From contig OW203762.1 in assembly GCA_934045905.1 (NCBI GenBank), forward strand, positions 5,518,001-5,582,000: a stretch of 64,000 nt of DNA, read 5' to 3'. Origin of the DNA: Leuctra nigra. Taxonomy: Eukaryota; Arthropoda; Insecta; Plecoptera; Leuctridae. A program made the position numbers and the translations under genes. Within the stretch, counting starts at the first letter, position 1; each line of letters opens with the position of its first letter. The notes below the pieces were generated by a model. The model made no database searches. It was not told the DNA's origin and saw only the letters and a program-made list of their open reading frames with translations. Of this stretch, positions 19,201 to 62,628 are shown one piece after another.

Positions 19201-19400
19201 NNNNNNNNNNNNNNNNNNNNNNNNNNNNNNNNNNNNNNNNNNNNNNNNNNNNNNNNNNNNNNNNNNNNNNNNNNNNNNNNNNNNNNNNNNNNNNNNNNNN
19301 NNNNNNNNNNNNNNNNNNNNNNNNNNNNNNNNNNNNNNNNNNNNNNNNNNNNNNNNNNNNNNNNNNNNNNNNNNNNNNNNNNNNNNNNNNNNNNNNNNNN
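19201..19400. other. assembly gap (200 N)
   Basis: Exactly 200 N bases, probably a placeholder size. The two frames called open across it contain unknown residues only. The gap lies where a long hairpin element would be expected to continue. Confidence 0.98.
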
Positions 19401-20400: not shown

Positions 20401-20616
20401 AGCGAGTGCAGCTCTCCCCTCCCCCCCCCCCTCGCAGGTCGTGTGTTCGATGTTTTCCTCGTGTCATCCATGCCTCCATCAAGTCGTCTAATGAAATCTG
20501 CCAACTCCTCACCCCCCGTCCTGGTCGCTTAATTCCGACCCCCTGCGCGCCCTCGCCGGGCCATCAACCCCGCCCTTCCTGCCGCCCGCACGTCATTCCG
20601 TGGCTCGGGGTGCGTG

Positions 20617-21285
20617 CGGCGTCATCGCTTCCCCGTCTCATTCCAGACGTGGCAGCAGCGGCGTCATCGCTTCCCCGTCTCATTCCAGACGTGGCAGGAG
20701 CGGCGTCATCGCTTCCCCGTCTCATTCCAGACGTGGCAGGAGCGGCGTCATCGCTTCCCCGTCTCATTCCAGACGCGGCAGGAGCGGCGTCATCGCTTCC
20801 CCGTCTCATTCCAGACGCGGCAGGAGCGGAGTCATCGCTTCCTCGTCTCATTCCAGACGCGGCAGGAGCGGCGTCATCGCTTCCTCGTCTCATTCCAGAC
20901 TCGGCAGCAGCGGCGTCATCGCTTCCCCGTCTCATTCCAGACGTGGCAGCAGCGGCATCATCGCTTTCCCGTCTCATTCCAGACGTGGCAGCAGCGGCGT
21001 CATCGCTTCCCCGTCTCATTCCAGACGCGGCAGCAGCGGCGTCATCGCTTCCTCGTCTCATTCCAGACTCGGCAGCAGCGGCGTCATCGCTTCCCCGTCT
21101 CATTCCAGACGTGGCAGCAGCGGCGTCATCGCTTCCCCGTCTCATTCCAGACGTGGCAGCAGCGGCGTCATCGCTTCCCCGTCTCATTCCAGACGTGGCA
21201 GGAGCGGCGTCATCGCTTCCCCGTCTCATTCCAGACGCGGCAGGAGCGGCGTCATCGCTTCCCCGTCTCATTCCAGACGCGGCGA
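20617..21285. repeat. 42-bp minisatellite, about 16 copies
   Basis: The unit is about 42 bp, with core GTCATCGCTTCCCCGTCTCA then TTCCAGACGTGGCAGCAGCG. Copies differ at a few positions (GTGGCA/GCGGCA/CTCGGCA; CAGCAG/CAGGAG). Because 42 is a multiple of three and the unit lacks stops, long frames stay open on both strands. One plus frame repeats SSLPRLIPD with an Ala-rich link, and other frames repeat SHSRRGRSGVIAS or GMRRGSDDAA. No frame is favoured, no domain is visible, and codon third positions are not especially variable, so I call it noncoding. Confidence 0.85.
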
Positions 21286-40622: not shown

Positions 40623-40713
40623 ATGGCATTCATCAGAGAGAGATATCAGCAAGTGATCAATGATGACAACAAGGACAGCATGTGGATCTTGGAGACTGTG
40701 CTCTATAAGTTAG
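40623..40713 (+). CDS. odorant receptor exon 1
   Basis: ATG in a strong context (GCAACCATGG). It encodes 30 residues beginning MAFIRERYQQ and ending ETVLYKL, plus one base, and ends at TTAG|GTACGA. The leftover G completes a Gly codon with GT from exon 2, restoring the KLGLWSQ signature typical of receptor N-termini. Confidence 0.82.
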
Positions 40714-43700
40714 GTACGATTAAAACCTACCTAGTGGTCAGAAGGCGGAATTGACTAATTCTTGGCTCAGTCAGTATTGATATTTTTGTTTTAGCAAGAC
40801 AATGCTACATCATCAATACATTTTTCCGTGTGGCAACACAATATTACACGTAAAACTGCACTTTTCGGAAGGAAACCCGTAAAAATAAAGCAGAAAACCC
40901 CTCATAGCTCGGTAAAACATCCACAAACGTATACATTTAAACATGTTAAAATAACCTGCCACCATCCTCTTCATGTGGCAAACAATCGAAGCCTCTATCT
41001 GCCCAGTTTAAATATCTCTCTACCCCCAGCTCACTTCTTATCTTCTAACTTCAAACCCTATCCGTTCTTGAAACCCCCTTCACACTCCTCAAGAACTTCA
41101 TCTCCGCTGCCTGTAGCTGATCCATTTCCTTTCCTCCCGCTGACCACGTCACTCCCCCGTATGTTAGTATTGGAAGGAAACACATTTTATAAGTTATTAT
41201 CATTTTACAGACTTTTGGAAACTTCTCATGCAATAGCAGCTTCCTCACACCTGATAGAAATACTTTACTTTTCTTCTTCTTTTCTGTACTCATCTACTTT
41301 TCTTGCGGTCTATTCTCGAAATAGTTATCACGTCATAACTCCGAGTTATGAATCATAAGGAGGTTTGCCCTATCTCTCACCATGTTAATCTTATGGCTTT
41401 TCGTCATATCATAACTTATGACGTGATAACTGTTTCGAGAAAAGGGGCCCTTTATTAGGCTGCATTTCACCAAGATTCCAAACCCGGGTTAGAGGCGGTA
41501 AACCTGGTTTAGAGGCTCCTAAACCTGGTTTACCGCCTCTAACCCGGGTTTGGAATCTTGGTGAAACGCAGCCTTAGTGTAGAATACAGAAATAGCATCT
41601 AACCCCCTTTAGCCATAGCTGTGACGTCAGACTATGTCATGTGTGTTTCAGGTCTCTGGAGCCAAGACAACGGGCCGAGAAGTCTGACTCTGCCAATACG
41701 AATCCTCTGTTTCTCCTCTGTAACTCTTGATCCACCGGTGTGACGTCAGACTATGTCATGTGTGTTTCAGGTCTCTGGAGCCAAGACAACGGGCCGAGAA
41801 GTCTGACTCTGCCAATACGAATCCTCTGTTTCTCCTCTGTTACTCTTGATCCACCGGTGTGACGTCAGACTATGCCATGTGTGTTTCAGGTCTCTGGAGC
41901 CAAGACAACGGGCCGAGAAGTCTGACTCTGCCAATACGAATCCTCTGTTTCTCCTCTGTAACTCTTGATCCACCGGTGTGACGTCAGACTATGTCATGTG
42001 TGTTTCAGGTCTCTGGAGCCAAGACAACGGGCCGAGAAGTCTGACTCTGCCAATACGAATCCTCTGTTTCTCCTCTGTAACTCTTGATCCACCGGTGTGA
42101 CGTCAGACTATGTCATGTGTGTTTCAGGTCTCTGGAGCCAAGACAACGGGCCGAGAAGTCTGACTCTGCCAATACGAATCCTCTGTTTCTCCTCTGTAAC
42201 TCTTGATCCACCGGTGTGACGTCAGACTATGTCATGTGTGTTTCAGGTCTCTGGAGCCAAGACAACGGGCCGAGAAGTCTGACTCTGCCAATACGAATCC
42301 TCTGTTTCTCCTCTGTTACTCTTGATCCACCGGTGTGACGTCAGACTATGTCATGTGTGTTTCAGGTCTCTGGAGCCAAGACAACGGGCCGAGAAGTCTG
42401 ACTCTGCCAATACGAATCCTCTGTTTCTCCTCTGTAACTCTTGATCCACCGGTGTGACGTCAGACTATGTCATGTGTGTTTCAGGTCTCTGGAGCCAAGA
42501 CAACGGGCCGAGAAGTCTGACTCTGCCAATACGAATCCTCTGTTTCTCCTCTGTAACTCTTGATCCACCGGTGTGACGTCAGACTATGTCATGTGTGTTT
42601 CAGGTCTCTGGAGCCAAGACAACGGGCCGAGAAGTCTGACTCTGCCAATACGAATCCTCTGTTTCTCCTCTGTAACTCTTGATCCACCGGTGTGACGTCA
42701 GACTATGTCATGTGTGTTTCAGGTCTCTGGAGCCAAGACAACGGGCCGAGAAGTCTGACTCTGCCAATACGAATCCTCTGTTTCTCCTCTGTAACTCTTG
42801 ATCCACCGGTGTGACGTCAGACTATGTCATGTGTGTTTCAGGTCTCTGGAGCCAAGACAACGGGCCGAGAAGTCTGACTCTGCCAATACGAATCCTCTGT
42901 TTCTCCTCTGTAACTCTTGATCCACCGGTGTGACGTCAGACTATGTCATGTGTGTTTCAGGTCTCTGGAGCCAAGACAACGGGCCGAGAAGTCTGACTCT
43001 GCCAATACGAATCCTCTGTTTCTCCTCTGTAACTCTTGATCCACCGGTGTGACGTCAGACTATGTCATGTGTGTTTCAGGTCTCTGGAGCCAAGACAACG
43101 GGCCGAGAAGTCTGACTCTGCCAATACGAATCCTCTGTTTCTCCTCTGTAACTCTTGATCCACCGGTGTGACGTCAGACTATGTCATGTGTGTTTCAAGT
43201 CTCTGGAGCCAAGACAACGGGCCGAGAAGTCTGACTCTGCCAATACGAATCCTCTGTTTCTCCTCTGTAACTCTTGATCCACCGGTGTGACGTCAGACTA
43301 TGTCATGTGTGTTTCAGGTCTCTGGAGCCAAGACAACGGGCCGAGAAGTCTGACTCTGCCAATACGAATCCTCTGTTTCTCCTCTGTAACTCTTGATCCA
43401 CCGGTGTGACGTCAGACTATGTCATGTGTGTTTCAGGTCTCTGGAGCCAAGACAACGGGCCGAGAAGTCTGACTCTGCCAATACGAATCCTCTGTTTCTC
43501 CTCTGTAACTCTTGATCCACCGGTGTGACGTCAGACTATGTCATGTGTGTTTCAGGTCTCTGGAGCCAAGACAACGGTCCGAGAAGTCTGACTCTGCCAA
43601 TACGAATCCTCTGTTTCTCCTCTGTAACTCTTGATCCACCGGTGTGACGTCAGACTATGTCATGTGTGTTTCAGGTCTCTGGAGCCAAGACAACGGGCCG

Positions 43701-46700
43701 AGAAGTCTGACTCTGCCAATACGAATCCTCTGTTTCTCCTCTGTAACTCTTGATCCACCGGTGTGACGTCAGACTATGTCATGTGTGTTTCAGGTCTCTG
43801 GAGCCAAGACAACGGGCCGAGAAGTCTGACTCTGCCAATACGAATCCTCTGTTTCTCCTCTGTAACTCTTGATCCACCGGTGTGACGTCAGACTATGTCA
43901 TGTGTGTTTCAGGTCTCTGGAGCCAAGACAACGGGCCGAGAAGTCTGACTCTGCCAATACGAATCCTCTGTTTCTCCTCTGTAACTCTTGATCCACCGGT
44001 GTGACGTCAGACTATGTCATGTGTGTTTCAGGTCTCTGGAGCCAAGACAACGGGCCGAGAAGTCTGACTCTGCCAATACGAATCCTCTGTTTCTCCTCTG
44101 TAACTCTTGATCCACCGGTGTGACGTCAGACTATGTCATGTGTGTTTCAGGTCTCTGGAGCCAAGACAACGGGCCGAGAAGTCTGACTCTGCCAATACGA
44201 ATCCTCTGTTTCTCCTCTGTAACTCTTGATCCACCGGTGTGACGTCAGACTATGTCATGTGTGTTTCAGGTCTCTGGAGCCAAGACAACGGGCCGAGAAG
44301 TCTGACTCTGCCAATACGAATCCTCTGTTTCTCCTCTGTAACTCTTGATCCACCGGTGTGACGTCAGACTATGTCATGTGTGTTTCAGGTCTCTGGAGCC
44401 AAGACAACGGGCCGAGAAGTCTGACTCTGCCAATACGAATCCTCTGTTTCTCCTCTGTAACTCTTGATCCACCGGTGTGACGTCAGACTATGTCATGTGT
44501 GTTTCAGGTCTCTGGAGCCAAGACAACGGGCCGAGATGTCTGACTCTGCCAATACGAATCCTCTGTTTCTCCTCTGTAACTCTTGATCCACCGGTGTGAC
44601 GTCAGACTATGTCATGTGTGTTTCAGGTCTCTGGAGCCAAGACAACGGGCCGAGATGTCTGACTCTGCCAATACGAATCCTCTGTTTCTCCTCTGTAACT
44701 CTTAACCCACCGGTGTGACGTCAGACTATGTCATGTGTGTTTCAGGTCTCTGGAGCCAAGACAACGGGCCGAGAAGTCTGACTCTGCCAATACGAATCCT
44801 CTGTTTCTCCTCTGTAACTCTTAACACACCGGTGTGACGTCAGACTAAGTTATGTGTGTTTCAGGCATCTGGAGCCAAGACAACGGGCCGAGAAGTCTGA
44901 CTCTGCCAATACGAATCCTCTGTTTCTCCTCTGTAACTCTTAACCCACCGGTGTGACGTCAGACTAAGTTATGTGTGTTTCAGGCATCTGGAGCCAAGAC
45001 AACGGGCCGAGAAGTCTGACTCTGCCAATACGAATCCTCTGTTTCTCCTCTGTAACTCTTAACCCACCGGTGTGACGTCAGACGAAGTTATGTGTGTTTC
45101 AGGTCTCTGGAGCCAAGACAACGGGCCGAGAAGTCTGACTCTGCCAATACGAATCCTCTGTTTCTCCTCTGTAACTCTTGATCCACCGGTGTGACGTCAG
45201 ACTATGTCATGTGTGTTTCAGGTCTCTGGAGCCAAGACAACGGTCCGAGAAGTCTGACTCTGCCAATACGAATCCTCTGTTTCTCCTCTGTAACTCTTGA
45301 TCCACCGGTGTGACGTCAGACTATGTCATGTGTGTTTCAGGTCTCTGGAGCCAAGACAACGGGCCGAGAAGTCTGACTCTGCCAATACGAATCCTCTGTT
45401 TCTCCTCTGTAACTCTTGATCCACCGGTGTGACGTCAGACTATGTCATGTGTGTTTCAGGTCTCTGGAGCCAAGACAACGGTCCGAGAAGTCTGACTCTG
45501 CCAATACGAATCCTCTGTTTCTCCTCTGTAACTCTTGATCCACCGGTGTGACGTCAGACTATGTCATGTGTGTTTCAGGTCTCTGGAGCCAAGACAACGG
45601 GCCGAGAAGTCTGACTCTGCCAATACGAATCCTCTGTTTCTCCTCTGTAACTCTTGATCCACCGGTGTGACGTCAGACTATGTCATGTGTGTTTCAGGTC
45701 TCTGGAGCCAAGACAACGGGCCGAGAAGTCTGACTCTGCCAATACGAATCCTCTGTTTCTCCTCTGTAACTCTTGACCTACCGGTGTGACGTCAGACTAT
45801 GTCATGTGTGTTTCAGGTCTCTGGAGCCAAGACAACGGGCCGAGAAGTCTGACTCTGCCAATACGAATCCTCTGTTTCTCCTCTGTAACTCTTGATCCAC
45901 CGGTGTGACGTCAGACTATGTCATGTGTGTTTCAGGTCTCTGGAGCCAAGACAACGGGCCGAGAAGTCTGACTCTGCCAATACGAATCCTCTGTTTCTCC
46001 TCTGTAACTCTTGATCCACCGGTGTGACGTCAGACTATGTCATGTGTGTTTCAGGTCTCTGGAGCCAAGACAACGGGCCGAGAAGTCTGACTCTGCCAAT
46101 ACGAATCCTCTGTTTCTCCTCTGTAACACTTGATCCACCGGTGTGACGTCAGACTATGTCATGTGTGTTTCAGGTCTCTGGAGCCAAGACAACGGGCCGA
46201 GAAGTCTGACTCTGCCAATACGAATCCTCTGTTTCTCCTCTGTAACTCTTGATCCACCGGTGTGACGTCAGACTATGTCATGTGTGTTTCAGGTCTCTGG
46301 AGCCAAGACAACGGGCCGAGAAGTCTGACTCTGCCAATACGAATCCTCTGTTTCTCCTCTGTAACTCTTGATCCACCGGTGTGACGTCAGACTATGTCAT
46401 GTGTGTTTCAGGTCTCTGGAGCCAAGACAACGGGCCGAGAAGTCTGACTCTGCCAATACGAATCCTCTGTTTCTCCTCTGTTACTCTTGATCCACCGGTG
46501 TGACGTCAGACTATGTCATGTGTGTTTCAGGTCTCTGGAGCCAAGACAACGGGCCGAGAAGTCTGACTCTGCCAATACGAATCCTCTGTTTCTCCTCTGT
46601 AACTCTTGATCCACCGGTGTGACGTCAGACTATGTCATGTGTGTTTCAGGTCTCTGGAGCCAAGACAACGGGCCGAGAAGTCTGACTCTGCCAATACGAA

Positions 46701-49700
46701 TCCTCTGTTTCTCCTCTGTAACTCTTGATCCACCGGTGTGACGTCAGACTATGTCATGTGTGTTTCAGGTCTCTGGAGCCAAGACAACGGGCCGAGAAGT
46801 CTGACTCTGCCAATACGAATCCTCTGTTTCTCCTCTGTAACTCTTGATCCACCGGTGTGACGTCAGACTATGTCATGTGTGTTTCAGGTCTCTGGAGCCA
46901 AGACAACGGGCCGAGAAGTCTGACTCTGCCAATACGAATCCTCTGTTTCTCCACTGTAACTCTTGATCCACCGGTGTGACGTCAGACTATGTCATGTGTG
47001 TTTCAGGTCTCTGGAGCCAAGACAACGGGCCGAGAAGTCTGACTCTGCCAATACGAATCCTCTGTTTCTCCTCTGTAACTCTTGATCCACCGGTGTGACG
47101 TCAGACTTTGTCATGTGTGTTTCAGGTCTCTGGAGCCAAGACAACGGGCCGAGAAGTCTGACTCTGCCAATACGAATCCTCTGTTTCTCCTCTGTAACTC
47201 TTGACCTACCGGTGTGACGTCAGACTATGTCATGTGTGTTTCAGGTCTCTGGAGCCAAGACAACGGGCCGAGAAGTCTGACTCTGCCAATACGAATCCTC
47301 TGTTTCTCCTCTGTAACTCTTGATCCACCGGTGTGACGTCAGACTATGTCATGTGTGTTTCAGGTCTCTGGAGCCAAGACAACGGGCCGAGAAGTCTGAC
47401 TCTGCCAATACGAATCCTCTGTTTCTCCTCTGTAACTCTTGATCCACCGGTGTGACGTCAGACTATGTCATGTGTGTTTCAGGTCTCTGGAGCCAAGACA
47501 ACGGGCCGAGAAGTCTGACTCTGCCAATACGAATCCTCTGTTTCTCCACTGTAACTCTTGATCCACCGGTGTGACGTCAGACTATGTCATGTGTGTTTCA
47601 GGTCTCTGGAGCCAAGACAACGGGCCGAGAAGTCTGACTCTGCCAATACGAATCCTCTGTTTCTCCTCTGTAACTCTTGATCCACCGGTGTGACGTCAGA
47701 CTATGTCATGTGTGTTTCAGGTCTCTGGAGCCAAGACAACGGGCCGAGAAGTCTGACTCTGCCAATACGAATCCTCTGTTTCTCCTCTGTAACTCTTGAT
47801 CCACCGGTGTGACGTCAGACTATGTCATGTGTGTTTCAGGTCTCTGGAGCCAAGACAACGGGCCGAGAAGTCTGACTCTGCCAATACGAATCCTCTGTTT
47901 CTCCTCTGTAACTCTTGATCCACCGGTGTGACGTCAGACTATGTCATGTGTGTTTCAGGTCTCTGGAGCCAAGACAACGGGCCGAGAAGTCTGACTCTGC
48001 CAATACGAATCCTCTGTTTCTCCTCTGTAACTCTTGATCCACCGGTGTGACGTCAGACTATGTCATGTGTGTTTCAGGTCTCTGGAGCCAAGACAACGGG
48101 CCGAGAAGTCTGACTCTGCCAATACGAATCCTCTGTTTCTCCTCTGTAACTCTTGATCCACCGGTGTGACGTCAGACTATGTCATGTGTGTTTCAGGTCT
48201 CTGGAGCCAAGACAACGGGCCGAGAAGTCTGACTCTGCCAATACGAATCCTCTGTTTCTCCTCTGTAACTCTTGATCCACCGGTGTGACGTCAGACTATG
48301 TCATGTGTGTTTCAGGTCTCTGGAGCCAAGACAACGGGCCGAGAAGTCTGACTCTGCCAATACGAATCCTCTGTTTCTCCTCTGTAACTCTTGATCCACC
48401 GGTGTGACGTCAGACTATGTCATGTGTGTTTCAGGTCTCTGGAGCCAAGACAACGGGCCGAGAAGTCTGACTCTGCCAATACGAATCCTCTGTTTCTCCT
48501 CTGTAACTCTTGATCCACCGGTGTGACGTCAGACTATGTCATGTGTGTTTCAGGTCTCTGGAGCCAAGACAACGGGCCGAGAAGTCTGACTCTGCCAATA
48601 CGAATCCTCTGTTTCTCCTCTGTAACTCTTGATCCACCGGTGTGACGTCAGACTATGTCATGTGTGTTTCAGGTCTCTGGAGCCAAGACAACGGGCCGAG
48701 AAGTCTGACTCTGCCAATACGAATCCTCTGTTTCTCCTCTGTAACTCTTGATCCACCGGTGTGACGTCAGACTAAGTCATGTGTGTTTCAGGTCTCTGGA
48801 GCCAAGACAACGGGCCGAGAAGTCTGACTCTGCCAATACGAATCCTCTGTTTCTCCTCTGTAACTCTTGATCCACCGGTGTGACGTCAGACTATGTCACG
48901 TGTGTTTCAGGTCTCTGGAGCCAAGACAACGGGCCGAGAAGTCTGACTCTGCCAATACGAATCCTCTGTTTCTCCTCTGTAACTCTTGATCCACCGGTGT
49001 GACGTCAGACTATGTCATGTGTGTTTCAGGTCTCTGGAGCCAAGACAACGGGCCGAGAAGTCTGACTCTGCCAATACGAATCCTCTGTTTCTCCTCTGTA
49101 ACTCTTGACCTACCGGTGTGACGTCAGACTATGTCATGTGTGTTTCAGGTCTCTGGAGCCAAGACAACGGGCCGAGAAGTCTGACTCTGCCAATACGAAT
49201 CCTCTGTTTCTCCTCTGTAACTCTTGATCCACCGGTGTGACGTCAGACTATGTCATGTGTGTTTCAGGTCTCTGGAGCCAAGACAACGGGCCGAGAAGTC
49301 TGACTCTGCCAATACGAATCCTCTGTTTCTCCTCTGTAACTCTTGATCCACCGGTGTGACGTCAGACTATGTCATGTGTGTTTCAGGTCTCTGGAGCCAA
49401 GACAACGGGCCGAGAAGTCTGACTCTGCCAATACGAATCCTCTGTTTCTCCTCTGTAACTCTTGATCCACCGGTGTGACGTCAGACTATGTCATGTGTGT
49501 TTCAGGTCTCTGGAGCCAAGACAACGGGCCGAGAAGTCTGACTCTGCCAATACGAATCCTCTGTTTCTCCTCTGTAACTCTTGATCCACCGGTGTGACGT
49601 CAGACTATGTCATGTGTGTTTCAGGTCTCTGGAGCCAAGACAACGGGCCGAGAAGTCTGACTCTGCCAATACGAATCCCCTGTTTCTCCTCTGTAACTCT

Positions 49701-52700
49701 TGATCCACCGGTGTGACGTCAGACTATGTCACGTGTGTTTCAGGTCTCTGGAGCCAAGACAACGGGCCGAGAAGTCTGACTCTGCCATAACGAATCCTCT
49801 GTTTCTCCTCTGTAACTCTTGATCCACCGGTGTGACGTCAGACTATGTCACGTGTGTTTCAGGTCTCTGGAGCCAAGACAACGGGCCGAGAAGTCTGACT
49901 CTGCCAATACGAATCCTCTGTTTCTCCTCTGTAACTCTTGATCCACCGGTGTGACGTCAGACTAAGTCACGTGTGTTTCAGGTCTCTGGAGCCAAGACAA
50001 CGGGCCGAGAAGTCTGACTCTGCCAATACGAATCCTCTGTTTCTCCTCTGTAACTCTTGATCCACCGGTGTGACGTCAGACTATGTCATGTGTGTTTCAG
50101 GTCTCTGGAGCCAAGACAACGGGCCGAGAAGTCTGACTCTGCCAATACGAATCCTCTGTTTCTCCTCTGTAACTCTTGATCCACCGGTGTGACGTCAGAC
50201 TATGTCATGTGTGTTTCAGGTCTCTGGAGCCAAGACAACGGGCCGAGAAGTCTGACTCTGCCAATACGAATCCTCTGTTTCTCCTCTGTAACTCTTGATC
50301 CACCGGTGTGACGTCAGACTATGTCATGTGTGTTTCAGGTCTCTGGAGCCAAGACAACGGGCCGAGAAGTCTGACTCTGCCAATACGAATCCTCTGTTTC
50401 TCCTCTGTAACTCTTGATCCACCGGTGTGACGTCAGACTATGTCATGTGTGTTTCAGGTCTCTGGAGCCAAGACAACGGGCCGAGAAGTCTGACTCTGCC
50501 AATACGAATCCTCTGTTTCTCCTCTGTAACTCTTGATCCACCGGTGTGACGTCAGACTATGTCATGTGTGTTTCAGGTCTCTGGAGCCAAGACAACGGGC
50601 CGAGAAGTCTGACTCTGCCAATACGAATCCTCTGTTTCTCCTCTGTAACTCTTGATCCACCGGTGTGACGTCAGACTATGTCATGTGTGTTTCAGGTCTC
50701 TGGAGCCAAGACAACGGGCCGAGAAGTCTGACTCTGCCAATACGAATCCTCTGTTTCTCCTCTGTAACTCTTGATCCACCGGTGTGACGTCAGACTATGT
50801 CATGTGTGTTTCAGGTCTCTGGAGCCAAGACAACGGGCCGAGAAGTCTGACTCTGCCAATACGAATCCTCTGTTTCTCCTCTGTAACTCTTGATCCACCG
50901 GTGTGACGTCAGACTATGTCATGTGTGTTTCAAGTCTCTGGAGCCAAGACAACGGGCCGAGAAGTCTGACTCTGCCAATACGAATCCTCTGTTTCTCCTC
51001 TGTAACTCTTGATCCACCGGTGTGACGTCAGACTATGTCATGTGTGTTTCAGGTCTCTGGAGCCAAGACAACGGGCCGAGAAGTCTGACTCTGCCAATAC
51101 GAATCCTCTGTTTCTCCTCTGTAACTCTTGATCCACCGGTGTGACGTCAGACTATGTCATGTGTGTTTCAGGTCTCTGGAGCCAAGACAACGGGCCGAGA
51201 AGTCTGACTCTGCCAATACGAATCCTCTGTTTCTCCTCTGTAACTCTTGATCCACCGGTGTGACGTCAGACTATGTCATGTGTGTTTCAGGTCTCTGGAG
51301 CCAAGACAACGGGCCGAGAAGTCTGACTCTGCCAATACGAATCCTCTGTTTCTCCTCTGTAACTCTTGATCCACCGGTGTGACGTCAGACTATGTCATGT
51401 GTGTTTCAGGTCTCTGGAGCCAAGACAACGGGCCGAGAAGTCTGACTCTGCCAATACGAATCCTCTGTTTCTCCTCTGTAACTCTTGATCCACCGGTGTG
51501 ACGTCAGACTATGTCACGTGTGTTTCAGGTCTCTGGAGCCAAGACAACGGGCCGAGAAGTCTGACTCTGCCAATACGAATCCTCTGTTTCTCCTCTGTAA
51601 CTCTTGATCCACCGGTGTGACGTCAGACTATGTCACGTGTGTTTCAGGTCTCTGGAGCCAAGACAACGGGCCGAGAAGTCTGACTTTGCCAATACGAATC
51701 CTCTGTTTCTCCACTGTAACTCTTGATCCACCGGTGTGACGTCAGACTATGTCATGTGTGTTTCAGGTCTCTGGAGCCAAGACAACCGGCCGAGAAGTCT
51801 GACTCTGCCAATACGAATCCTCTGTTTCTCCTCTGTAACTCTTGATCCACCGGTGTGACGTCAGACTATGTCATGTGTGTTTCAGGTCTCTGGAGCCAAG
51901 ACAACGGGCCGAGAAGTCTGACTTTGCCAATACGAATCCTCTGTTTCTCCTCTGTAACTCTTGACCTACCGGTGTGACGTCAGACTATGTCATGTGTGTT
52001 TCAGGTCTCTGGAGCCAAGACAACGGGCCGAGAAGTCTGACTCTGCCAATACGAATCCTCTGTTTCTCCTCTGTAACTCTTGATCCACCGGTGTGACGTC
52101 AGACTATGTCATGTGTGTTTCAGGTCTCTGGAGCCAAGACAACGGGCCGAGAAGTCTGACTCTGCCAATACGAATCCTCTGTTTCTCCTCTGTAACTCTT
52201 GATCCACCGGTGTGACGTCAGACTATGTCATGTGTGTTTCAGGTCTCTGGAGCCAAGACAACGGGCCGAGAAGTCTGACTCTGCCAATACGAATCCTCTG
52301 TTTCTCCACTCCAATGATGTTCATATCGTTCGCGGGCAACATTGTTCTAAACACGAGCAGCATCTCGGACATGTTGAGAGCTTTTATGAACACACTTGCT
52401 ATTACAATGGGAGCAATTGCTGTCTTGTCGATTACGAACAATCAAACTGAATTGCAGTTGATTATACAAAGTCTGAGGAGAATGAGAAAGCAAGGCCACA
52501 ACAATGACGCTATTCGAAACAGAGAGAGGCTTCTGAAGGTTTTCATTTCAATGTGGATCGGCTGTGAATTCCTCATCGCGTTAATAATGATGTTGGTTGG
52601 GATTCCAAATGGCATTTCTAAAAGAGAGTTTCCCCATGGGCAAGTAGACAATGATTGGCACGCACAGCATCAATGAAATTCATCATCCCATTCATTCATT

Positions 52701-55700
52701 CGTCTCCAATTAGATCAATCAGGTTAAAAGAATTAAGACTACAGGGTCTTTTTATATTGATGTCAGTCCTGTCGCATATCTTTATGCTCATAACTCTCTT
52801 CATCTCTCTTCTTCTTGCTTCATCACTTGCCACCATCATTCAAGCTCTACTTCTTCCCACTTGACTACACTTCTCCTGATACTTTCCTTCTAACACTCGT
52901 CTTGGTAATCCAACTCTTCCCATTCTCTTTATATCAATACCATTGCATTCGCTCTCTAATTTGTACCTTTTTGAGCGAGCGAAGCGAGCGTCTCCTTTTG
53001 GCTAATTTGGCACGGACCTCTGTTTTTTTCCGCTAGGTGAGGCTATGCAGGTCACAGTTTTTCTTCGATCGAGCTGAAATTTTGTACACATGTAGAGACA
53101 ACCTTTTCTGTTTGCAGACCCTAATATTTTTGAAATCTATTCACTGGTTAAAATTTAAATAAACATCTCCTGATAGGTTGAAAATTGAAAATGATCTTCG
53201 ATTAATCTGATCAAACTCATATTTTGGCTATACAGGTCAGAGTTTTTCTTCAATCGAGCTGAAATTTTGCAAACATGTAAAACTAACCTTCTCTGATTGC
53301 AGACCCTAATTTTTTTGAAATCCATTTATTGGTTAAAATTTAAATAAATATCTCCTGATAGGCTGAAAAATGAAAACGGTCTTCGATAATTCTGATCAAA
53401 CTCATATTTTGTATGATCATTAAGACCAACATTGTATCTTATTTTACAAAATTTCATCCCAATCAGTTAAGAACGCATGAACTTATTGACATTTTTAATA
53501 TCTGTCAGTAATGAAGTATCGAAATGAATGTTTTCCAGCGCCACTTGAATTGAATCTGATTTGCTATATTTACCAGGGTGCTTTGATGTTATTTTCACGT
53601 TTCGATGAAAAGTATAAACTTTTTTGTTGATTGAGTGATCATGTTTCAATTCAATATGTATGGATATGTTTTCTGTGCGTTGTGTACGCATTTCCGGTTT
53701 GAGAATTTGCACGTACCCGTGCTCGCTCATCAACGCGTTACACTGAGCGTTTTACTAGTAAATATTTCTAATACAAGGGAGGTCACAAAGTTCCTGGTCA
53801 AGAAGGGTTATCGGAGGGGTTTGAGTTTCTAGGCCAAGAAACCTAAAAAAAATATATATTTGGTAAAAATTGAGTATTCACCGTCATCAAGTTCTTGCAA
53901 AATCAAGGGAAAAACCTCAAGCTTAAACCATTTTGGAAGAGATTTTAGCTGTTAACGGAGTCCCCATGGTTTTCCATAGAACTAGGAAAACGCTCGGTGT
54001 AACGCGTTGATGAGCGAGAACCGATACGCGCAACACCTCGAACCGACGTTTCGGAACGCACGAACACATACAAAATATGATCCACTCAATCAACATAAAA
54101 GTACATCATTTTCATTGAAACTGAAAATATACACTCTGGTTACATAAAGATAATCAGATCCAAGTTGCATTGGAATAATTCCCATTCATTTCGATAGCAT
54201 CTTTCAAAGAGTTAAAAATGTCAACATTCTTGACCGATGGGGCTGATAATAATATGTAAAATGAGAGAAAGTGGTAATTCTAATAGCTATGCAAAATTTG
54301 AAGTTGATCGGACCATTTTTATTTTTCAACCAAACGGGAGAATTTTATTTTAAAATTAACCAATTAGAGGATTTAGCTGAAATTTGTATCCTTAATTATG
54401 ACGTCCTCAAAAACTGTGAAAAATTTCGATTCGATACGTCCAACGGTGTGAGCTACCAATGAGCTTTAATGTTCAACAAAAACTCATAAATGTTTTTAAA
54501 AACTATACATGAGAAATTTAGAATGATATTAATTATTGAAATCAAGCCATTGAAGTCAAGGCATTGATCAATACATTGACCCGTGTAAATCCAGCTTTAG
54601 AGTCAAGGTTGCTGTTCTTGGCTGCTCGTAGGATTTCCTTCAACTTCAGGTCTTGATTTGAGAATCAAGGTTGCTGTTGTTGGCTACTCGTAGGATTTCC
54701 TTCAACTTCAGGTCTTGATTTGAGAATCAAGGTTGCTGTTGTTGGCTACTCGTAGGATTTCCTTCAACTTCAGGTCTTGATTTGAGAATCAAGGTTGCTG
54801 TTCTTGGCTACTCGTAGGATTTCCTTCAACTTCAGGTCTTGATTTGAGAATAAAGGTTGCTGTTCTTGGCTACTCGTAGGATTTCCTTCAACTTCAGGTC
54901 TTGATTTGAGAATATTTAGGTGCAAGGAAGATGAAATCATTTTAGAAGTCATTTTCGCAGTTGGATGTGTCCTAACTTATCTGATGAGGATAAAGAAGGA
55001 CTAAACTGAACCCTTTCAAGTGAAAAGTTGTAGCATTTTGGATGAAAAAGTCACGTGATATGCCTTGGTCTTAACTTCCCTCGTATATTATGCATCAAAG
55101 TATATTCTTAATTTATGTATCAAATTTCACTTGGGTTGAGCACATTTTGCGAATCATCGCATGTGAAGTTTGAAATTATGATTTTTTAATGATTCCAGGT
55201 TTTGGACTCCGTTTGACCAAAGAGCATCACCTATGTTTGAAATTACATTAATTCTCTTTACTTTTACTGAGTTTGTACTCTATCCAATCTGCCGAGTTTT
55301 ACTAATAAATTGCAATGTATCATTCTTCATTCTTGTGGTCGCTCAGTGGAAGATTCTGATATACAATCTGAACCACTTGCCTCAACGAGCAAGAGCAAAC
55401 ATTCGACTTGGAGCTATTCTTACGCGAGCTGCTTGTAAGTGGATGAAAGCAGCGGGAGTTGGAAGATTTGCTCGGAGACATCCTCGCAGGGTACAGAGAA
55501 GAGTTTTGTTAAGAAGCTCGCAGTTACTAGAGTGGGTGACCTTGGACTCTCACAGCCAAGACATTGTGGACAATCAGGCAGATGAGTTGCCTATGGAGAG
55601 CGCCTGGTGGAGGAAAGAAGCCGATGAAGATGTTTGGCAACAGACAAGGAAGAAGAGGTTTGACCTTGAATTGCACCGACTCCTCGGCGACTGCGTCAAA

Positions 55701-56817
55701 CATCATCAAGATCTATTGGAGTAAGTACTCGTCTAATACTATATTCCGGATCAAATGCTATAAAACTAGTAAAATATATTTTGATATCACTCCTACAGTT
55801 CAACATTTTTATTTTTCCTTTTTCAATTTGATCAACATTTTTTCGTTGAAGAGACTTTGCCGATAATTTTACAGTGAGTGCTTTATATGGGGATCAAGTA
55901 ACGGAATATATCTCCTTCACAGGGTGCTTAGTCTGTACGAGTCAGCTATACAGCCACTTGCCAATGCAGCTCTTTTGACTTTCATCATCGTCATTACAAC
56001 ATTTATGTTGTATTCAAAAGTGGTAGGTATTCACAGACTCAGTACTAGGAAAACGCTCAGTGTAACGCGTTGATGAGCTAGCCTTCGTACTGCATCCAAT
56101 TTGATATGCGTTTGCAAGTCCCTGCTCTAGCACTGACAGCACTCATAAAATACTTGGCATACATTTGAAAATATTTCAAGATCATCGAATAAAATGTCCT
56201 TAAAATGACAATAACTTTTGAAAATAACGACATATTAGTCTAAAAATTGGCAAAAATATCACAAATAATGGTCCCAATGATCATTCAAAGTTTTAAGTTG
56301 ATCTGACCGAACGGTCTAGTTTAAATTTCAAAAATCACATAAGAAATGTATTTTAATTTTAACCAATGAACGGATTTCCATGAAATGTATGAACCTGTAA
56401 CTACCTTTAAATTTATAAACCTATAAGGCTGCGTTTCACCAAGATTCCAAACCCGGGTTAGAGGCGGTAAACCTGGTTTAGGAGCCTCTAAACCAGGTTT
56501 ACCGCCTCTAACCCGGGTTTGGAATCTTGGTGAAACGAAGCCTAAATCTAGTGGAGCGGTCGCTCCACGCCAGCCAAGTCGTACAGCGCGCGCACACTCT
56601 CATTTAAAAAGGCTGGAGCAACCCACTTTTACTGTAAGCATCAAAGTGGCATTTTCGGCCTCCTGGACCTCAAAATTGGAAAATCTCACATTGTTGCGAA
56701 ATATCTTAATTTCGAGCTATGGCCCACATATACCACATATACCAAATTTGAGAACAATAGGTTATGCCGTTTGCGAGCTAGAGGGCCGTGAAAACCGTGT
56801 AATTGTACGGCTTTCAG

Positions 56818-56884
<67 letters not shown>

Positions 56885-59627
56885 TGATGATTCATCTTCC
56901 AATAAATTCCGCGGTCTCCGCCACAGCCTAAACGGCTATGTTGATTGACCCGAAATTTTCACCACATATACAGCTCGTCTGCCTGATGATACCTTGCCCT
57001 TATAAATTTTTTGTGCCGCCATTTTGAAACCGGAAGTGACGTCATATCTCAAAAACGGCTTAACCGATCGGAACGAAATTTGCGCCAATCGATTCAGACG
57101 GTCCTCTATATGAAATAACAGTAGTTAAATTAAAGTTTTCTAATTACTGAAACCGGAAATGACGTCATAGTTAAGCGAAATCTGCCTAAATTCACTTCCC
57201 TTTATATAAAAACCAACTACATATTCAGAAGTCTTATAATGAAATATTAGTATTTATATACAAATTAATACAATGTGTAAGAGCTTTCAGCCGCCATTTT
57301 GAAAACCGGAAGTGATGCCATATCTCGAAAACGGCTGGACCTATTGGAACGATGCTTTCGCAATTCTTCATGGCATATCACTTTAAGTATATATTTAGCT
57401 CCAAACAATATTTTTTTTAGTAAATTATTCGGAAATGGCGTATTTTTTAAAAAGAATTAGCCATTGTTGTCCCAAAAAGTTTTACAAGTTGTGTAAATAA
57501 ACTAAAAAAATAATTGATATCCCCATAAAAAACACTCCGTGTAAAAAAGCAGCCAAGTCTCTTCAACTAAAAAAAAATATTATGAAATCTAAAAATTCTG
57601 CACTGAAACGTATAGTAGAGGGCCAAAAGGTCGATTTAAAGCTCCCGTAGGATCGTCGTGAAGGGAAGGTGCCACCTATCTCACTAAATGCATATATAGG
57701 TCCAAAACCTAAAAAATTTTGGTGTCACCCCCAGACCCCTGGCGGGGGCTGGGGGCTGGGGGCTAAAGTTATTCATTCCTGTACCCTACACGAAAAGACA
57801 TAGAGGATTATTATTTTTTATTTAAGATCAAAACAGAATGCCCTATATAAAAAAAATTATTTTCAAAAGTTTTGGCCGCCATGTTGGAAAAAAAAATTTG
57901 AAACATTAAGAATTTATATACACTATAAATGGGTCATTGGACGAACAAATGTCTCAAACAAAAGTTATAGTACTCATAAAATGCAATAACTTTGTAATTT
58001 AACATTTTTTTCTATCACCAATACTTTATGAGTGAGAGCCGATTTAGTGCCGTTTTTCGGAGCGGGATAGGGACTACACAATGTTAATTGATCTCGGGGG
58101 GCCTTGAACGGAGTGAATTTTACCGCTTTTTTATGACATCGTAACGCCAAAACCGTTCATCCGATCTAAAAAAATCTTTGCGGCATATGAAAGGTACATT
58201 CTTTGGGTCAACTTTCCCGAATTCGCAACAATCTTCTGTTTTCCATTGTTGAGAAAAAGCAATATTTCTTGAACAGAAATCGAACCTATTTTCAATTCGT
58301 TTTTATAGAGGTAGTACAGGCACAAGTGAATTATACCGTAAAATTTTTGTGAAGGGGGCTGGCACCAAATGCCATTTGATAAAGCATGCTTTGAGATGTA
58401 TGAAAAGTCATGGTGCCAACCTCGCAACCCTGGCCGGGGGCGGGGGCGGGGGGTATTTTCCAAAAAATCGACGGTTTCAAAAAAAAAAACTGAAAAAATT
58501 GGCACACATAAATTGGATTATGTAATTTGAAAAAAAGAGAACAAAAATGTCCATCGCCGCCATCTTGGATAAAAAAGGTTACAGAAAGAACTTTTTATAC
58601 ATACTGAATAACGTGGGCCGGTTATTAAATTCCGGTTGGCGCAAGAAAAGGTCCAATGAGCGAGTTATCGCTGTGGTGAAACTTCTTCAGTAATTTGGCT
58701 GAACATCTCACATATTATAACAAACATACCAAGGTTTGATGAGTAAAAGTTTTAAAAACATTACTAATGTAGAAAAAAAGTTACAGCTGTTCGAATTTGG
58801 TTATCGAAAAGTCGATTAATTTGAGATCCGTTTAATTGATTTTTCGATAACCATATTCGAACAGCTGTAACTTTTTTCTACATAAGTAATGTTTATAAAA
58901 CTTTCAAACATCAAACCTTGGTATGTTTGTTATAATATGTGAGATGTTCAGCCAAATTACTGAAGAAGTTTCACCACAGCGATAACTCGCTCATTGGACC
59001 TTTTCTTGCGCCAACCGGAATTTAATAACCGGCCCACGTTATTCAGTATGTATAAAAAGTTCTTTCTGTAACCTTTTTTATCCAAGATGGCGGCGATGGA
59101 CATTTTTGTTCTCTTTTTTTCAAATTACATAATCCAATTTATGTGTGCCAATTTTTTCAGTTTTTTTTTTTGAAACCGTCGATTTTTTGGAAAATACCCC
59201 CCGCCCCCGCCCCCGGCCAGGGTTGCGAGGTTGGCACCATGACTTTTCATACATCTCAAAGCATGCTTTATCAAATGGCATTTGGTGCCAGCCCCCTTCA
59301 CAAAAATTTTACGGTATAATTCACTTGTGCCTGTACTACCTCTATAAAAACGAATTGAAAATAGGTTCGATTTCTGTTCAAGAAATATTGCTTTTTCTCA
59401 ACAATGGAAAACAGAAGATTGTTGCGAATTCGGGAAAGTTGACCCAAAGAATGTACCTTTCATATGCCGCAAAGATTTTTTTAGATCGGATGAACGGTTT
59501 TGGCGTTACGATGTCATAAAAAAGCGGTAAAATTCACTCCGTTCAAGGCCCCCCGAGATCAATTAACATTGTTGAGCGAGCGTAGCGAGCGTCACCACGG
59601 TACTCTTATGGCACTTTCTCTGTGTGT

Positions 59628-59662
<35 letters not shown>

Positions 59663-62628
59663 CTGCACTGCCCAGGTCAAACCGCACAACCAATCGATCT
59701 GAAATTTTGTACACATACTAACGTAATCTATGCGATCCCTGGGATCTTTTCTGAACGGGATCCTGTGATTGGTTCAAATTTTATAAAAATTATCTTTCGA
59801 TTGGTTGGTTCGATCAATTTGAAATTTAGCAAAGTCATTGCAACCAACATTGTATCCAATCAAAAAAAAATTCAGCCAAATCCTCCAATTGGTTCAAATT
59901 TGAAACCATTTTTCCTGTGATTTTTGAAATTTAAACTGGAACCGATTGACCGACCAACTAAAAACTTCGCATGGTCATTGGTACCAACATTTGAAGTATT
60001 TTTGCCAATTTTCACTCTAATCTGTCATTATTTTCAAAAGTTTTTGTCATTTTAGGGACATTTTGCGTGTTGGCTGTCAAATTCACGGCGACTTCGAATC
60101 TACAGTTCAAGGCAAGGTAGTTAGAGCAGAAAGTTTTAAACGATATGAAACTAATAATGACCGTTCAACAGATTGATCTGATATTGTGTACACACACTAC
60201 ATATCATATCATATGGGTGGTCCCAGGTATATTTTTTGAACGAGATCCTGTGATTTTTGAAAATTAACAAGGAACCGTTCAATCATAAAGGTTTAATCGA
60301 TCAACTTAAAACTTAGCAAGGATTGGCACCAATATTTTTGGAGATTTTGGAGATTTTTATACAAGTATGTGACGAAACTAAAGAATTATTGGCTTTTAAT
60401 GACATTCGATAGACATAATTTCGGTTCGAGGTGTTGCGTGTATCCGTGCTCGCTCATCAACGCGTTACACAGAGCGTTTTCCTAGTGTAGTCCCTATCCC
60501 GCTCCGAAAAACGGCACTAAATCGGCTCTCACTCATAAAGTATTGGTGATAGAAAAAAATGTTAAATTACAAAGTTATTGCATTTTATGAGTACTATAAC
60601 TTTTGTTTGAGACATTTGTTCGTCCAATGACCCATTTATAGTGTATATAAATTCTTAATGTTTCAATTTTTTTTTCCAACATGGCGGCCAAAACTTTTGA
60701 AAATAATTTTTTTTTATATAGGGCATTCTGTTTTGATCTTAAATAAAAAAAATTAATCCTCTATGTCTTTTCGTGTAGGGTACAGGAATGAATAACTTTA
60801 GCCCCCAGCCCCCAGCCCCCGCCAGGGGTCTGGGGGTGGCACCAAAATTTTTTAGGTTTTGGACCTATATATGCATTTAGTGAGATAGGTGGCACCTTCC
60901 CTTCACGACGATCCTACGGGATACCACTTGGCCCCCTACTAGTAGTGATATCAAAAAATGAGCCAAGTCAAAACTTTATTTGAAAATTAAAAAATACTTA
61001 GCGCATCGTTTTTTTAGGGCATTGTAGGTATAGGTACTGTTAGTATATGTATTTATATCTAGCCTATACTTCTAAGCTATTTATATACACGATGCGCCAA
61101 GTATTTTTTAATTTTCAAATAAAGTTTTGACTTGGCTCATTTTTTGATATCACTACGTTTCAGTGCAGAATTTTTAGATTTCATAATATTTTTTTTTAGT
61201 TGAAGAGACTTGGCTGTTTTTTTTACACGGAGTGTTTTTTATGGGGATATAGGTTTACCGATACCGACGGCCTCAACAACTGGGAAACATTTCGAACTGA
61301 TACGTCGAACGGTGTGAGCTACAGGCCACTTTCATTTACCAACCAATCACAGGATCCTGTTCAAAAACGATCCCAGAGACGGCATAGATTACATAAGTAT
61401 GTGTGAAAATTTGACCTGGGCAACTCCGGAAAAAAAACACATAGAAAGTACCGTTTGAGCCCCGTATTGACACTCGCTAGTCGCTACGCTCGCTCAATTA
61501 AAGTCGTATAATTAACTATGTTGTATAGATCAACTTTAAACGCCAACAATCCAATATTCGAGACAAAATGATTGTTTTGTGGAATTCACAAATACAAATC
61601 TAATTAGTAAATTGTTTTGCAGGAGACGACTTACGATTATGAAGGTCTTGGATTCTATGTATTCGCATTTCTATACAATCTAGGAACTTACGTGTACTTT
61701 CAGTTCTTTCAGAAAATTGTCGACGAGGTATGTAAATGTTTGAATTACTATAAAATCTGATGTGCGCATATTATCTACGTCTTACTCTTGTTCCTGTAGA
61801 GCTCGCTGGTACGGGAGGCTGCGTATGATACACAGTGGTACGATGCAACAGATGGGTTCAAGAGGTCAATCCGTATCATCATGTCACGGGCTAATCAACC
61901 TAATGTCATGAAAGTGGCTCGGTTTGTGCCGCTGACTCTGGAAACCTTCGGGAATGTGAGTTTATAGAAATACATTTTAGAGGGAAGTCTCATGATTTTT
62001 TTTCCGCAGTAAATTTGTATGTAAATATCAACACAATAATAATGTCAAGCACCCGAGGAATCACACTGAAGTTTAAACCCAACGGCTGTTGTATTAGATA
62101 CCATCGGTTCTCGTCAGATCTTATTAACACCGGGCGCGGTATCCAAAACAGGGCTCTTACTTATGGGACAGTTTGGCGGGAAAACGGTATTTGGCAAGGA
62201 TCAGAACTGTGAATTAAATTTCAAGTTTCCAAAATATGTTATAACATTGTGATGTAATTTTCAATTTGCCTTATATAAAATTTGAAGAAACATATCAAAT
62301 TTTGTATGCTAATTACTTGAAAACTATTCATCCCACAATAAAAATAATGACACATCTGTGTTCAGCAACATCTCGACTTTCATAAAATAACTATTATTCT
62401 AAAAAGTTATTTTTACTAGACTTCTAATTTGTTTGGTATGAATCCTATTGCTCTTAATGTACAGTGAGATTTAGAGGGAAGCGGTCGGAGTGCATCACTG
62501 CCTGGCACAGGGGCACTACGACCGCTTTCTTCTGAATCTCACTGTACATACTTGTTTTCTTGTAGGTAACTGCTTTCAGTTATAAGTGTTATAACATTTT
62601 GAAAAAATCTACACTTTTCCGAAAGTAA
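40623..62628 (+). CDS. odorant receptor (7tm_6 family), seven coding exons, 477 aa
   Basis: Exons: 40623-40713, 52243-52639, 55199-55720, 55923-56022, 61623-61727, 61800-61955, 62566-62628; 1434 nt including TAA. Every junction keeps phase. Family features are LGLWSQ near residues 30-35, FWTPFDQ at 164, VVAQWKILIYNLNHLP at about 209-224, KHHQDLLEVLSLYESAIQPL before TM5, and the C-terminal PLTLETFGNVTAFSYK. Hydrophobic stretches fit seven segments with the N-terminus inside. Such receptors form ligand-gated channels with Orco in dendrites of olfactory neurons. It is not Orco, judged by its C-terminus. Oddities are a 101-residue loop (226-326) between TM4 and TM5, a GC-AG intron 2, and intron 1 filled by an exon-derived satellite. 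The family call is firm; subfamily and ligand are unknown. The gene looks intact. Confidence 0.88.
41051..41293 (-). pseudogene. non-LTR retrotransposon reverse-transcriptase C-terminal fragment
   Basis: The minus strand encodes FLPILTYGGVTWSAGG followed by KEMDQLQAAEMKFLRSVKG. This is the 'LTYG..TW....LQ..EMKFLR...G.TR.DR' stretch found after the catalytic palm in many RTE/Jockey-like insect elements. Only about 80 residues remain, with no YXDD motif and no endonuclease. It is a dead fragment inside intron 1 of the receptor gene. Confidence 0.7.
41305..41442. mobile_element. foldback MITE in receptor intron 1
   Basis: Arms TCTCGAAATAGTTATCACGT/CATAACT and TTATGACGTGATAACTGTTT/CGAGA form a hairpin of about 135 bp. 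Confidence 0.6.
41458..41573. mobile_element. 116-bp near-perfect foldback MITE, TTA duplication, copy 1
   Basis: It is almost wholly palindromic: GGCTGCATTTCACCAAGATT at the left, AATCTTGGTGAAACGCAGCC at the right, about 7 bp at the centre. TTA flanks both sides, a 3-bp duplication as made by PIF/Harbinger-type transposases. It ends 46 bp before the 119-bp array. A second copy is in intron 4 (56428-56542). Confidence 0.82.
41620..52307 (+). repeat. 119-bp satellite made of duplicated intron 1 end plus exon 2 start, about 90 copies
   Basis: The word AATCCTCTG recurs from 41701 to 52292, exactly 89 periods of 119 bp, so about 90 units with no net indel. Each unit is 32 nt of intron end (TGTGACGTCAGACTATGTCA...TTTCAG), 65 nt identical to exon 2 from its first base (GTCTCTGGAGCCAAGACAAC...TTTCTCC), and 22 nt of filler (TCTGTAACTCTTGATCCACC GG). 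The last unit is the real acceptor and exon: at 52308 the sequence leaves the repeat and continues as coding exon 2. Most units are identical; variants cluster locally. The orientation is that of the gene, and the array fills nearly all of intron 1. Reading the exon frame through a unit meets TGA within 31 codons. Assembled copy number may not equal true copy number. Confidence 0.97.
52243..52639 (+). CDS. odorant receptor exon 2
   Basis: The acceptor GTGTGTTTCAG|GTCTCTGG is identical to the 89 upstream decoys. It encodes residues 31-163: SLTLPIRILCFSTPMMFISF begins TM1, MLRAFMNTLAITMGAIAVLS is TM2, and VFISMWIGCEFLIALIMMLV is TM3. Stopping at CCCCATGG|GCAAGT leaves two bases that pair with the one base opening exon 3 (Gly codon). 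A canonical GT four bases later would break the phase. Confidence 0.85.
52971..53758 (+). mobile_element. Helitron/Helentron-like element, copy 6 (receptor intron 2)
   Basis: The 5' end is TTGAGCGAGCGAAGCGAGCG and the 3' end is GCTCGCTCATCAACGCGTTA with terminal ACTAG. It contains an internal direct repeat of about 190 bp (CAGTTTTTCTTCGATCGAGC near 53056 and a similar word near 53234). Confidence 0.68.
53982..54470 (-). mobile_element. Helitron/Helentron-like element, truncated copy 7
   Basis: A minus-strand 3' end is present (CTAGGAAAACGCTCGGTGTA, AACGCGTT). No GAGCGAGC 5' end follows, so it is truncated. The right boundary is approximate. Confidence 0.5.
54600..54913 (+). repeat. 62-bp tandem repeat, about 5 copies (receptor intron 2)
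   Basis: The unit contains TCAAGGTTGCTGTTCTTGGC then TACTCGTAGGATTTCCTTCA and ACTTCAGGTCTTGATTTGAG. Copies differ by one or two bases (GTTGTTGG/GTTCTTGG; TACTCG/TGCTCG). Confidence 0.93.
55199..55720 (+). CDS. odorant receptor exon 3
   Basis: The acceptor is TGATTCCAG|G. It encodes residues 163-337: FWTPFDQRASPMFE (ECL2 to TM4 border), TM4 around EITLILFTFTEFVLYPICRV, and VVAQWKILIYNLNHLP. An unusually long loop follows (226-326): the first half is Arg/Lys-rich, the second acidic and Trp-containing. Then comes DCVKHHQDLL. It ends TTGGA|GTAAGT, phase 2. A GTAAGT at 55435 inside the loop could act as a cryptic or alternative donor, but I found no phase-matched acceptor within the exon. Confidence 0.85.
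55923..56022 (+). CDS. odorant receptor exon 4
   Basis: The acceptor is ATATCTCCTTCACAG|G. It completes Glu337 and encodes VLSLYESAIQPLANAALLTF then IIVITTFMLYSKV, which is TM5. It ends at AAAGTG|GTAGGT in phase 0. Intron 3 is only 202 bp. Confidence 0.85.
56045..56400 (-). mobile_element. Helitron/Helentron-like element, truncated copy 8 (intron 4)
   Basis: The minus-strand 3' end CTAGGAAAACGCTCAGTGTA starts about 20 bases after the exon 4 donor. No 5' terminus was found. The right limit is approximate. Confidence 0.5.
56428..56542. mobile_element. 115-bp foldback MITE, TAA duplication, copy 2 (intron 4)
   Basis: Same family as 41458-41573: GGCTGCGTTTCACCAAGATT at the left and AATCTTGGTGAAACGAAGCC at the right, flanked by TAA on both sides. 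Confidence 0.82.
56547..57516 (+). mobile_element. repeat family with CCGGAAGTGACGT monomers, copy C (intron 4)
   Basis: It begins near GTGGAGCGGTCGCTCCAC, like 18207. It contains an (AAT)n tract at about 56820-56881, then monomers with GCCGCCATTTTGAAACCGGA/AGTGACGTCATATC. It ends against the palindrome at 57517. Confidence 0.65.
59572..60485 (+). mobile_element. Helitron/Helentron-like element, copy 9, with empty-site control
   Basis: It is inserted in the right arm of the palindrome. The left arm, read in reverse, gives the empty site TTAACATTG|TGTAGTCCC. The filled site is TTAACATTG + TTGAGCGAGC...TTTTCCTAG + TGTAGTCCC. There is no target duplication beyond a possible single T. It is nearly identical to copy 1 at 9014-9911 apart from poly-T length and scattered substitutions. 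Confidence 0.82.
60942..61156. mobile_element. 215-bp foldback MITE nested in the palindrome
   Basis: Arms AGTAGTGATATCAAAAAATG and CATTTTTTGATATCACTAC continue inward with GAGCCAAGTCAAAACTTTAT and its complement. It is absent from the matching point of the left arm (near 57612). It is related to the inner arms of the element at 36188-37256. Confidence 0.78.
61251..61499 (-). mobile_element. Helitron/Helentron-like element, 5' fragment, copy 10 (intron 4)
   Basis: A minus-strand 5' end is present (TCGCTACGCTCGCTCAA at 61480-61497) with about 230 bp of internal family sequence (AGGATCCTGTTCAAAAACGA, TGACCTGGGCAACTCC). The 3' half is missing. It abuts the palindrome, and the fold-back end may mark the break. 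Confidence 0.55.
61623..61727 (+). CDS. odorant receptor exon 5
   Basis: The acceptor is ATTGTTTTGCAG|GAG. It encodes 35 residues, ETTYDYEGLGFYVFAFLYNL then GTYVYFQFFQKIVDE (TM6 region), phase 0 at both ends, with donor GAG|GTATGT. Only 72 bp separates it from exon 6. Confidence 0.88.
61800..61955 (+). CDS. odorant receptor exon 6
   Basis: The acceptor is TTGTTCCTGTAG|AGC. It encodes 52 residues, SSLVREAAYDTQWYDAT through RSIRIIMSRANQP to ARFVPLTLETFGN. The AAYDTQWYD and PLTLETF words are hallmark C-terminal motifs of insect odorant receptors. Donor AAT|GTGAGT, phase 0. Confidence 0.92.
62459..62547. mobile_element. small hairpin element 18 bp upstream of exon 7
   Basis: GTACAGTGAGATT at the left and AATCTCACTGTAC at the right enclose GC-rich sequence with a second inner pair (AGCGGTCG/CGACCGCT). 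The structure occupies the region where the branch point of intron 6 should lie. Confidence 0.6.
62566..62628 (+). CDS. odorant receptor exon 7 (C-terminus)
   Basis: The acceptor is TTGTTTTCTTGTAG|GTA. It encodes VTAFSYKCYNILKKSTLFRK and TAA, completing TM7 after PLTLETFGN. The short last exon is typical of the family. Confidence 0.87.
   Translation, partial: VTAFSYKCYNILKKSTLFRK

Follow-up and report, generated by a model that had tools for sequence, protein, structure and literature searches.

What becomes of a receptor gene when the start of one of its exons, together with the splice acceptor in front of it, is repeated some 90 times within the preceding intron? The question is raised by an odorant-receptor gene of the plecopteran Leuctra nigra, which lies on the plus strand of a stretch of 64,000 nucleotides (nt) of contig OW203762.1 (positions 5,518,001 to 5,582,000; assembly GCA_934045905.1). 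This whole stretch is called the window here, and positions are counted from its first letter. An earlier note, made from the letters alone, had described about 90 copies of a 119-bp unit at 41620..52307, each composed of 32 nt from the end of intron 1, 65 nt from the start of exon 2 and 22 nt of filler, with a spacing of exactly 89 x 119 bp, no net indel, and the only complete exon 2 fused to the last unit. This description proved correct in all of these points, and the large splice-acceptor array is real in the assembly.

Tandem Repeats Finder reported a period of 119 with 89.8 copies, 99% matches and 0% indels at 41620-52307. Cut in register, the array consists of 89 complete units (41620..52210) and a 90th, partial copy, which begins at 52211, i.e. 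at 41620 + 89 x 119. The intron part of each unit ends with TTTCAG, the exon part codes for residues 31-52, and the filler occupies unit positions 98-119 (first copy at 41717..41738). The last copy of 97 nt (52211..52307) contains the putative functional acceptor (AG at 52241-52242, placed by the register and the gene model) and the first 65 nt of the complete exon 2, into which it runs without interruption; beyond nucleotide 65, exon 2 occurs only once in the window. Decoys and last copy share the exon-start sequence GTCTCTGG and can be told apart only beyond exon nucleotide 65, where the decoys continue with TCTGTAACTC and the last copy with ACTCCAATG. The filler was matched 89 times in the window (at most 3 mismatches) and never in 100 shuffles, which rules out a chance origin of its repeats.

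The units are highly homogeneous. Fifty-eight of the 89 are identical to the consensus, and the array as a whole holds 22 unit types and 58 differences (0.55% per site), with a mean pairwise difference between units of 1.06%. Both the first unit and the last copy match the consensus over their full length, and the AG at unit positions 31-32 is kept in 87 of 89 units. Every unit also carries a perfect TGACGTCA (the first at 41622-41629), which we take to be the core of the cAMP response element (CRE); it is found 90 times in the array and 14 times elsewhere in the window.

The own genome was searched for the unit (536,196,549 bases in 144 contigs; the array lies on the contig called C2). All 88 genome matches of the filler (at most 2 mismatches) were inside the array, and a reversed control pattern had no match. 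A protein search with exon 2, in which 150 of 151 candidates were scored, gave 139 matches: the true exon 2, the 89 decoys, which are restricted to C2, and 49 paralogous exons elsewhere. Since filler and decoy peptide are confined to the array, a dispersed satellite that landed in the intron is ruled out. A viral origin was likewise rejected, as an exact 26-nt pattern had no match in viral_contigs. The search that the earlier note had asked for thus supports its claim that part of exon 2 and its acceptor were amplified in place, in the gene's own intron 1; the unit is unique to this locus as searched.

When exon 1 is joined to any decoy acceptor and read on, an in-frame stop follows within 35 codons in all 89 cases. 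Thus a working receptor must use the last acceptor. The stops also exclude a coding repeat within an exon, and mutually exclusive exons were discarded because each unit has only 65 nt of an exon 2 that measures 397 nt, the units are 99% identical, and stops follow when they are read. Exon 1 would then pair with the last acceptor, the only one to precede a complete exon with its own donor, and since all copies lie upstream of this exon they would be removed with intron 1, which by the gene model and the repeat analysis extends over 11.5 kb (40714..52242), 10.6 kb of it array. The decoys would have no strong donor at a normal distance, so that exon definition would favor the last copy: the GT of the filler agrees with the donor consensus at 5 of 9 positions (no G at -1 or +5), whereas the donors of the six exons agree at 6-8. 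The array would have no function of its own, yet with it the gene would carry the burden of about 87 acceptors that look usable.

The earlier note knew of no described case in which a splice acceptor with its exon start is amplified about 90-fold in place. As to the kind of repeat, this is not supported, as two papers show: mirage minisatellites in amphioxus (PMC3087553) and a two-copy case in potato (PMC4974935). Mirages are recognized by units that span an intron-exon boundary, by an array that adjoins the authentic boundary of its own gene, and by a unit found nowhere else in the genome, and further by copy numbers that vary between haplotypes and by regular splicing that goes on undisturbed. 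In the single assembly analyzed, 89 units span the boundary, the last copy runs on into the sole complete exon 2, and 88 of 88 filler matches fall in the array. The best explanation of the locus is therefore probably a mirage-type minisatellite that is tolerated within intron 1. The amphioxus mirages, in Adh3 and in the globins BflGb6 and BflGb9, resemble it in that many units keep AG/GT signals and in unit size (150-160 bp compared with 119 bp). They differ in having 6 and 3 units instead of 89 + 1, unit identities of 81-100% instead of about 99%, and boundary units that are excluded from homogenization, whereas the edges are clean here; the 22-nt insert and the insect odorant receptor are also unlike amphioxus. 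In PMC3087553, the reverse-transcription PCR results (and Adh3 data) are taken by the authors as undisturbed regular splicing despite the mirages.

In the potato RdRp gene, according to the extract of PMC4974935, the duplication also crosses the boundary of intron 1 and exon 2 and carries branch site, pyrimidine tract and acceptor. It is a single duplication (two copies), which became a new intron with RNA-Seq support, whereas the Leuctra array is large, known from its sequence alone, and has unit GT sites with 5 to 7 of 9 donor-consensus positions. Minisatellite expansion at an exon-intron boundary likewise alters gene structure among recent paralogs in human segmental duplications, with units of about 30 bp in about 4 copies and novel introns formed via cryptic sites (PMC2812944, in extract). 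Intron gain by tandem duplication in Drosophila is a related process (PMC2891723, in extract).

How the array arose can be read in part from its flanks. To the left of the first unit stands ...TTTAGCCATAGC and to the right of the last copy ACTCCAATG...; neither side has the filler, and the outer ends of the array share no base with the adjoining unit. Hence the ancestral site would have consisted of left flank, 97 nt and right flank, in which intron end and exon start follow one another with neither a break nor filler, and the filler would have arrived together with the duplication. In a first step, a tandem duplication of the 97-bp stretch over the junction of intron 1 and exon 2 would have taken place, and 22 bp would have been inserted where the two copies meet; judged by the flanks, this would fit the repair, by end joining, of a break whose staggered ends were long. 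Small tandem duplications arise when 3' overhangs are filled in and end-joined, and the CST/Pol alpha pathway predicts a direct duplication between staggered nicks, as the flanks here imply; the cells in which those duplications were seen were of mouse and human, the overhangs were shorter (43 bp), and no array grew from them (PMC8355091, in extract). In a second step, unequal exchange or replication slippage may have enlarged the 119-bp unit to about 90 copies.

The expansion is likely to be recent because the units and the array edges are nearly identical. Variants are shared between direct neighbors (lag 1) 16 times where 1.8 are expected (0 of 2000 permutations) and at lag 2 nine times (p 0.004); lags 3-30 are at chance level. 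Neighbor-shared variants and clean edges fit a recent expansion with local duplications. Of the two possibilities put forward in the earlier note, recent expansion or ongoing homogenization, the data fit the former; exchange is also compatible with them. Nine of the 65 sites of the exon part are variable and 14 of the 54 in the rest of the unit (p 0.11), and 3 of 9 variants in the exon part are silent, compared with 25% expected at random. This gives no sign of a coding constraint on the decoy exon pieces.

Several observations weigh against a tolerated mirage. Of the GT sites of the unit outside the filler, one agrees with the donor consensus at 7 of 9 positions and two at 6 of 9, as well as real donors do, so decoy exons may be formed as far as the sequence goes. 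A convincing local template for the filler was not found: no match within 1 kb exceeds 7 nt (P 0.93), and of many tests of template coverage one gave a P of 0.047. Both the use of the last acceptor and the copy number are based on one assembly. Furthermore, the predicted donor of exon 2 is a non-canonical GC, and a final short exon was not found downstream of exon 6 by motif scan and tblastx, in which the matches were repeat-like only.

The latter two points would also fit a pseudogene in the making, in which exon 2 is no longer spliced properly because of the array and selection on the gene has ceased. About 87 competing acceptors, each ending in a stop, lie ahead of the true one, and a duplication at exon 6 occurs in another receptor gene (on C1) that apparently lacks exons 3-5. 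We nevertheless consider this unlikely in view of the state of the gene. Its six exons form 457 codons without a stop, their splice sites are in frame, and exon 3 is conserved to the same degree as in other family members. According to the gene model, exon 1 (40623..40713, residues 1-30 and the first base of codon 31) has the donor GTACGA, and exon 2 (52243..52639, 397 nt) would connect in frame to exon 3 only via the GC donor TGG/GCAAGT; exons 3 to 6 follow at 55199..55720, 55923..56022, 61623..61727 and 61800..61955. The only Pfam match of the receptor, PF02949 (7tm_6, E 2.4e-24), spans residues 72-455. Its relatives of solved structure are Orco and odorant receptors (9 distinct sequences, best E 1.4e-7), and a protein search for relatives among 4440 candidates gave none at E 0.001.

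An assembly artefact, in which the animal has few units that were multiplied by the assembler, is quite improbable. Mis-assembly is known at such loci, the amphioxus BflGb6 draft being aberrant (PMC3087553, in extract), and the scaffold has a gap of 200 N at 19201-19400. However, 31 of the 89 units carry variants, which are of 22 types, are mostly neighbor-shared and show no longer period at lags up to 30; the indels that raw long-read error would leave are absent; and the genome has other arrays, whose units and homogeneity are different. Finally, the receptor level could be set by the units, either as real alternative exons or, with their roughly 90 TGACGTCA sites, as an enhancer, since an acceptor, a weak GT and one perfect TGACGTCA are present in each; but this is very improbable, as one decoy exon of 68 or 86 nt shifts the frame, read-through reaches a stop, no unit part has a significant excess of conservation, and the unit has no special RNA fold (z +1.55).

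Several other repeats lie in the receptor gene. Intron 2 contains a minisatellite of 62 bp x 5 (54599-54913). An inverted-repeat element with the core AAACCTGGTTTA has two copies in the introns, at 41445-41575, which ends 44 bases short of the array, and at 56430-56545. Inverted arms in intron 4 (58131-58505 and 59145-59519) with identical 124-residue frames are probably a transposable element.

Is the mirage an isolated case in its gene family? The 49 exon-2 places outside the array were examined with about 1.5 kb on each side, and exon starts were compared with their own surroundings. No tandem copy of the acceptor region was present in 48 of these 49 loci; five of them (L029, L034, L037, L038, L052) showed short matches only, of 14-30 nt. 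In three (L047, L054, L055) the match begins inside the exon and the acceptor is placed only approximately, and L014 and L015 are alike and perhaps not independent. The remaining locus, L031 on C7, has four 143-bp units (1032-1605, 99%) of 41 nt of intron and 102 nt of exon without filler. They are fused to a complete exon 2, and their decoys likewise lead to stops. Because it has another unit and other boundaries than the window array, L031 is, as read from its sequence, a separate event. Exons 1, 3 and 6 of the C7 gene share 81, 86 and 88% of their DNA with the window gene, and exon 2 is unlike. The idea that C2 and C7 form a special mosaic pair was dropped, since conservation of exon 3, but not of exon 2, is a feature of the whole family: exon 3 shows 55-80% protein identity at about 50 other genome places and 44-80% to most full-length matches, exon 2 only 25-45%. 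This gap may be due to uneven exon evolution or to exon-wise conversion.

Arrays were also found at other exon starts. Among the tandem arrays at loci L005-L055 (30 rows), those that overlap receptor exons are at L031 (again in L044), L038, L022 and L028, each at an exon 5' end. In L038 (C1; oriented 1931-2223), a 135-bp unit repeated 2.2 times puts acceptor and exon 6 start upstream of the full exon 6, in a gene whose exons 3-5 were not found. L022 (C12) and L028 (C9) share a 35-bp unit, composed of 5' leader, ATGTCGTTCAT and GTGA, in at least 26.6 copies (the array runs past the fetched piece) and 3.9 copies, respectively. Perfect units carry ATG TCG TTC ATG TGA (ATGTCGTTCATGTGA), a four-codon upstream frame, which is exact in 16 units of L022 and 3 of L028. 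Genome-wide, the 35-mer has at least 383 matches (at most 2 mismatches). Four of five further places (C9: 1.37, 2.04 and 4.14 Mb; C10: 3.27 Mb) run directly into a receptor exon 1, so that start-codon arrays lead into exon 1 of six odorant-receptor genes (L022, L028 and L064-L067 on C9 and C10). The fifth, a long array on the minus strand of C4 (2864486-2868292), has no exon 1 within the 435 bases fetched and no exon-2 match nearby among the matches listed; it may have been left behind by a receptor gene or be a satellite that moved. Of the 49 loci, 17 showed the start of exon 1 and 28 that of exon 3; that no array was found at these 28 exon 3 starts or at any exon 3' end is no more than a hint, given the small number of cases. 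In the receptor family, exon-start arrays thus occur at exon 1 (six genes), exon 2 (two) and exon 6 (one).

One might see in these repeats at receptor-exon 5' ends a family-wide tuning device, in which output falls in proportion to the number of copies, both through decoy acceptors before exon 2 and through arrays of short upstream frames before exon 1. We regard this as highly doubtful for either kind of array; if it were true, the fast-changing repeat number would provide heritable, gene-by-gene variation in smell. Minisatellites are common in this genome. Counting arrays of period 20 or more with at least 2.5 copies, we found 10 in 48 paralog loci, which total 162,570 bases (arrays make up 1.48% of these, counting the two at exon 1), 2 in the 29,150 bases of the window flanks, 7 in the window, and 7 in 40,000 bases from eight random places (23% of bases, owing to two satellite blocks). 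Leaving aside the array of the window, a single case among 49 exon-2 acceptors is at the background level, and no special targeting of receptors is needed. Chance and tolerance suffice to explain the exon-start arrays. Other minisatellites of the window are 31 bp x 80 at 26488-28942 and 42 bp x 16 at 20616-21283.

The kind of array described here is thus already published; new are its scale of about 90 copies and its recurrence in one receptor family. A full-text literature search with little subscription coverage found neither a mirage in an insect odorant receptor nor an array as large as about 90 copies. Provided that the copy number is correct, the locus is a natural test of acceptor choice, in which one donor faces about 90 near-identical acceptors. 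It poses the question whether exon definition or first-come splicing decides on the acceptor, where only the last one gives a protein, and the recurrence supplies replicate cases of different size in one genome. Minisatellites are thereby shown as a route to gene-structure change in a fast-evolving family.

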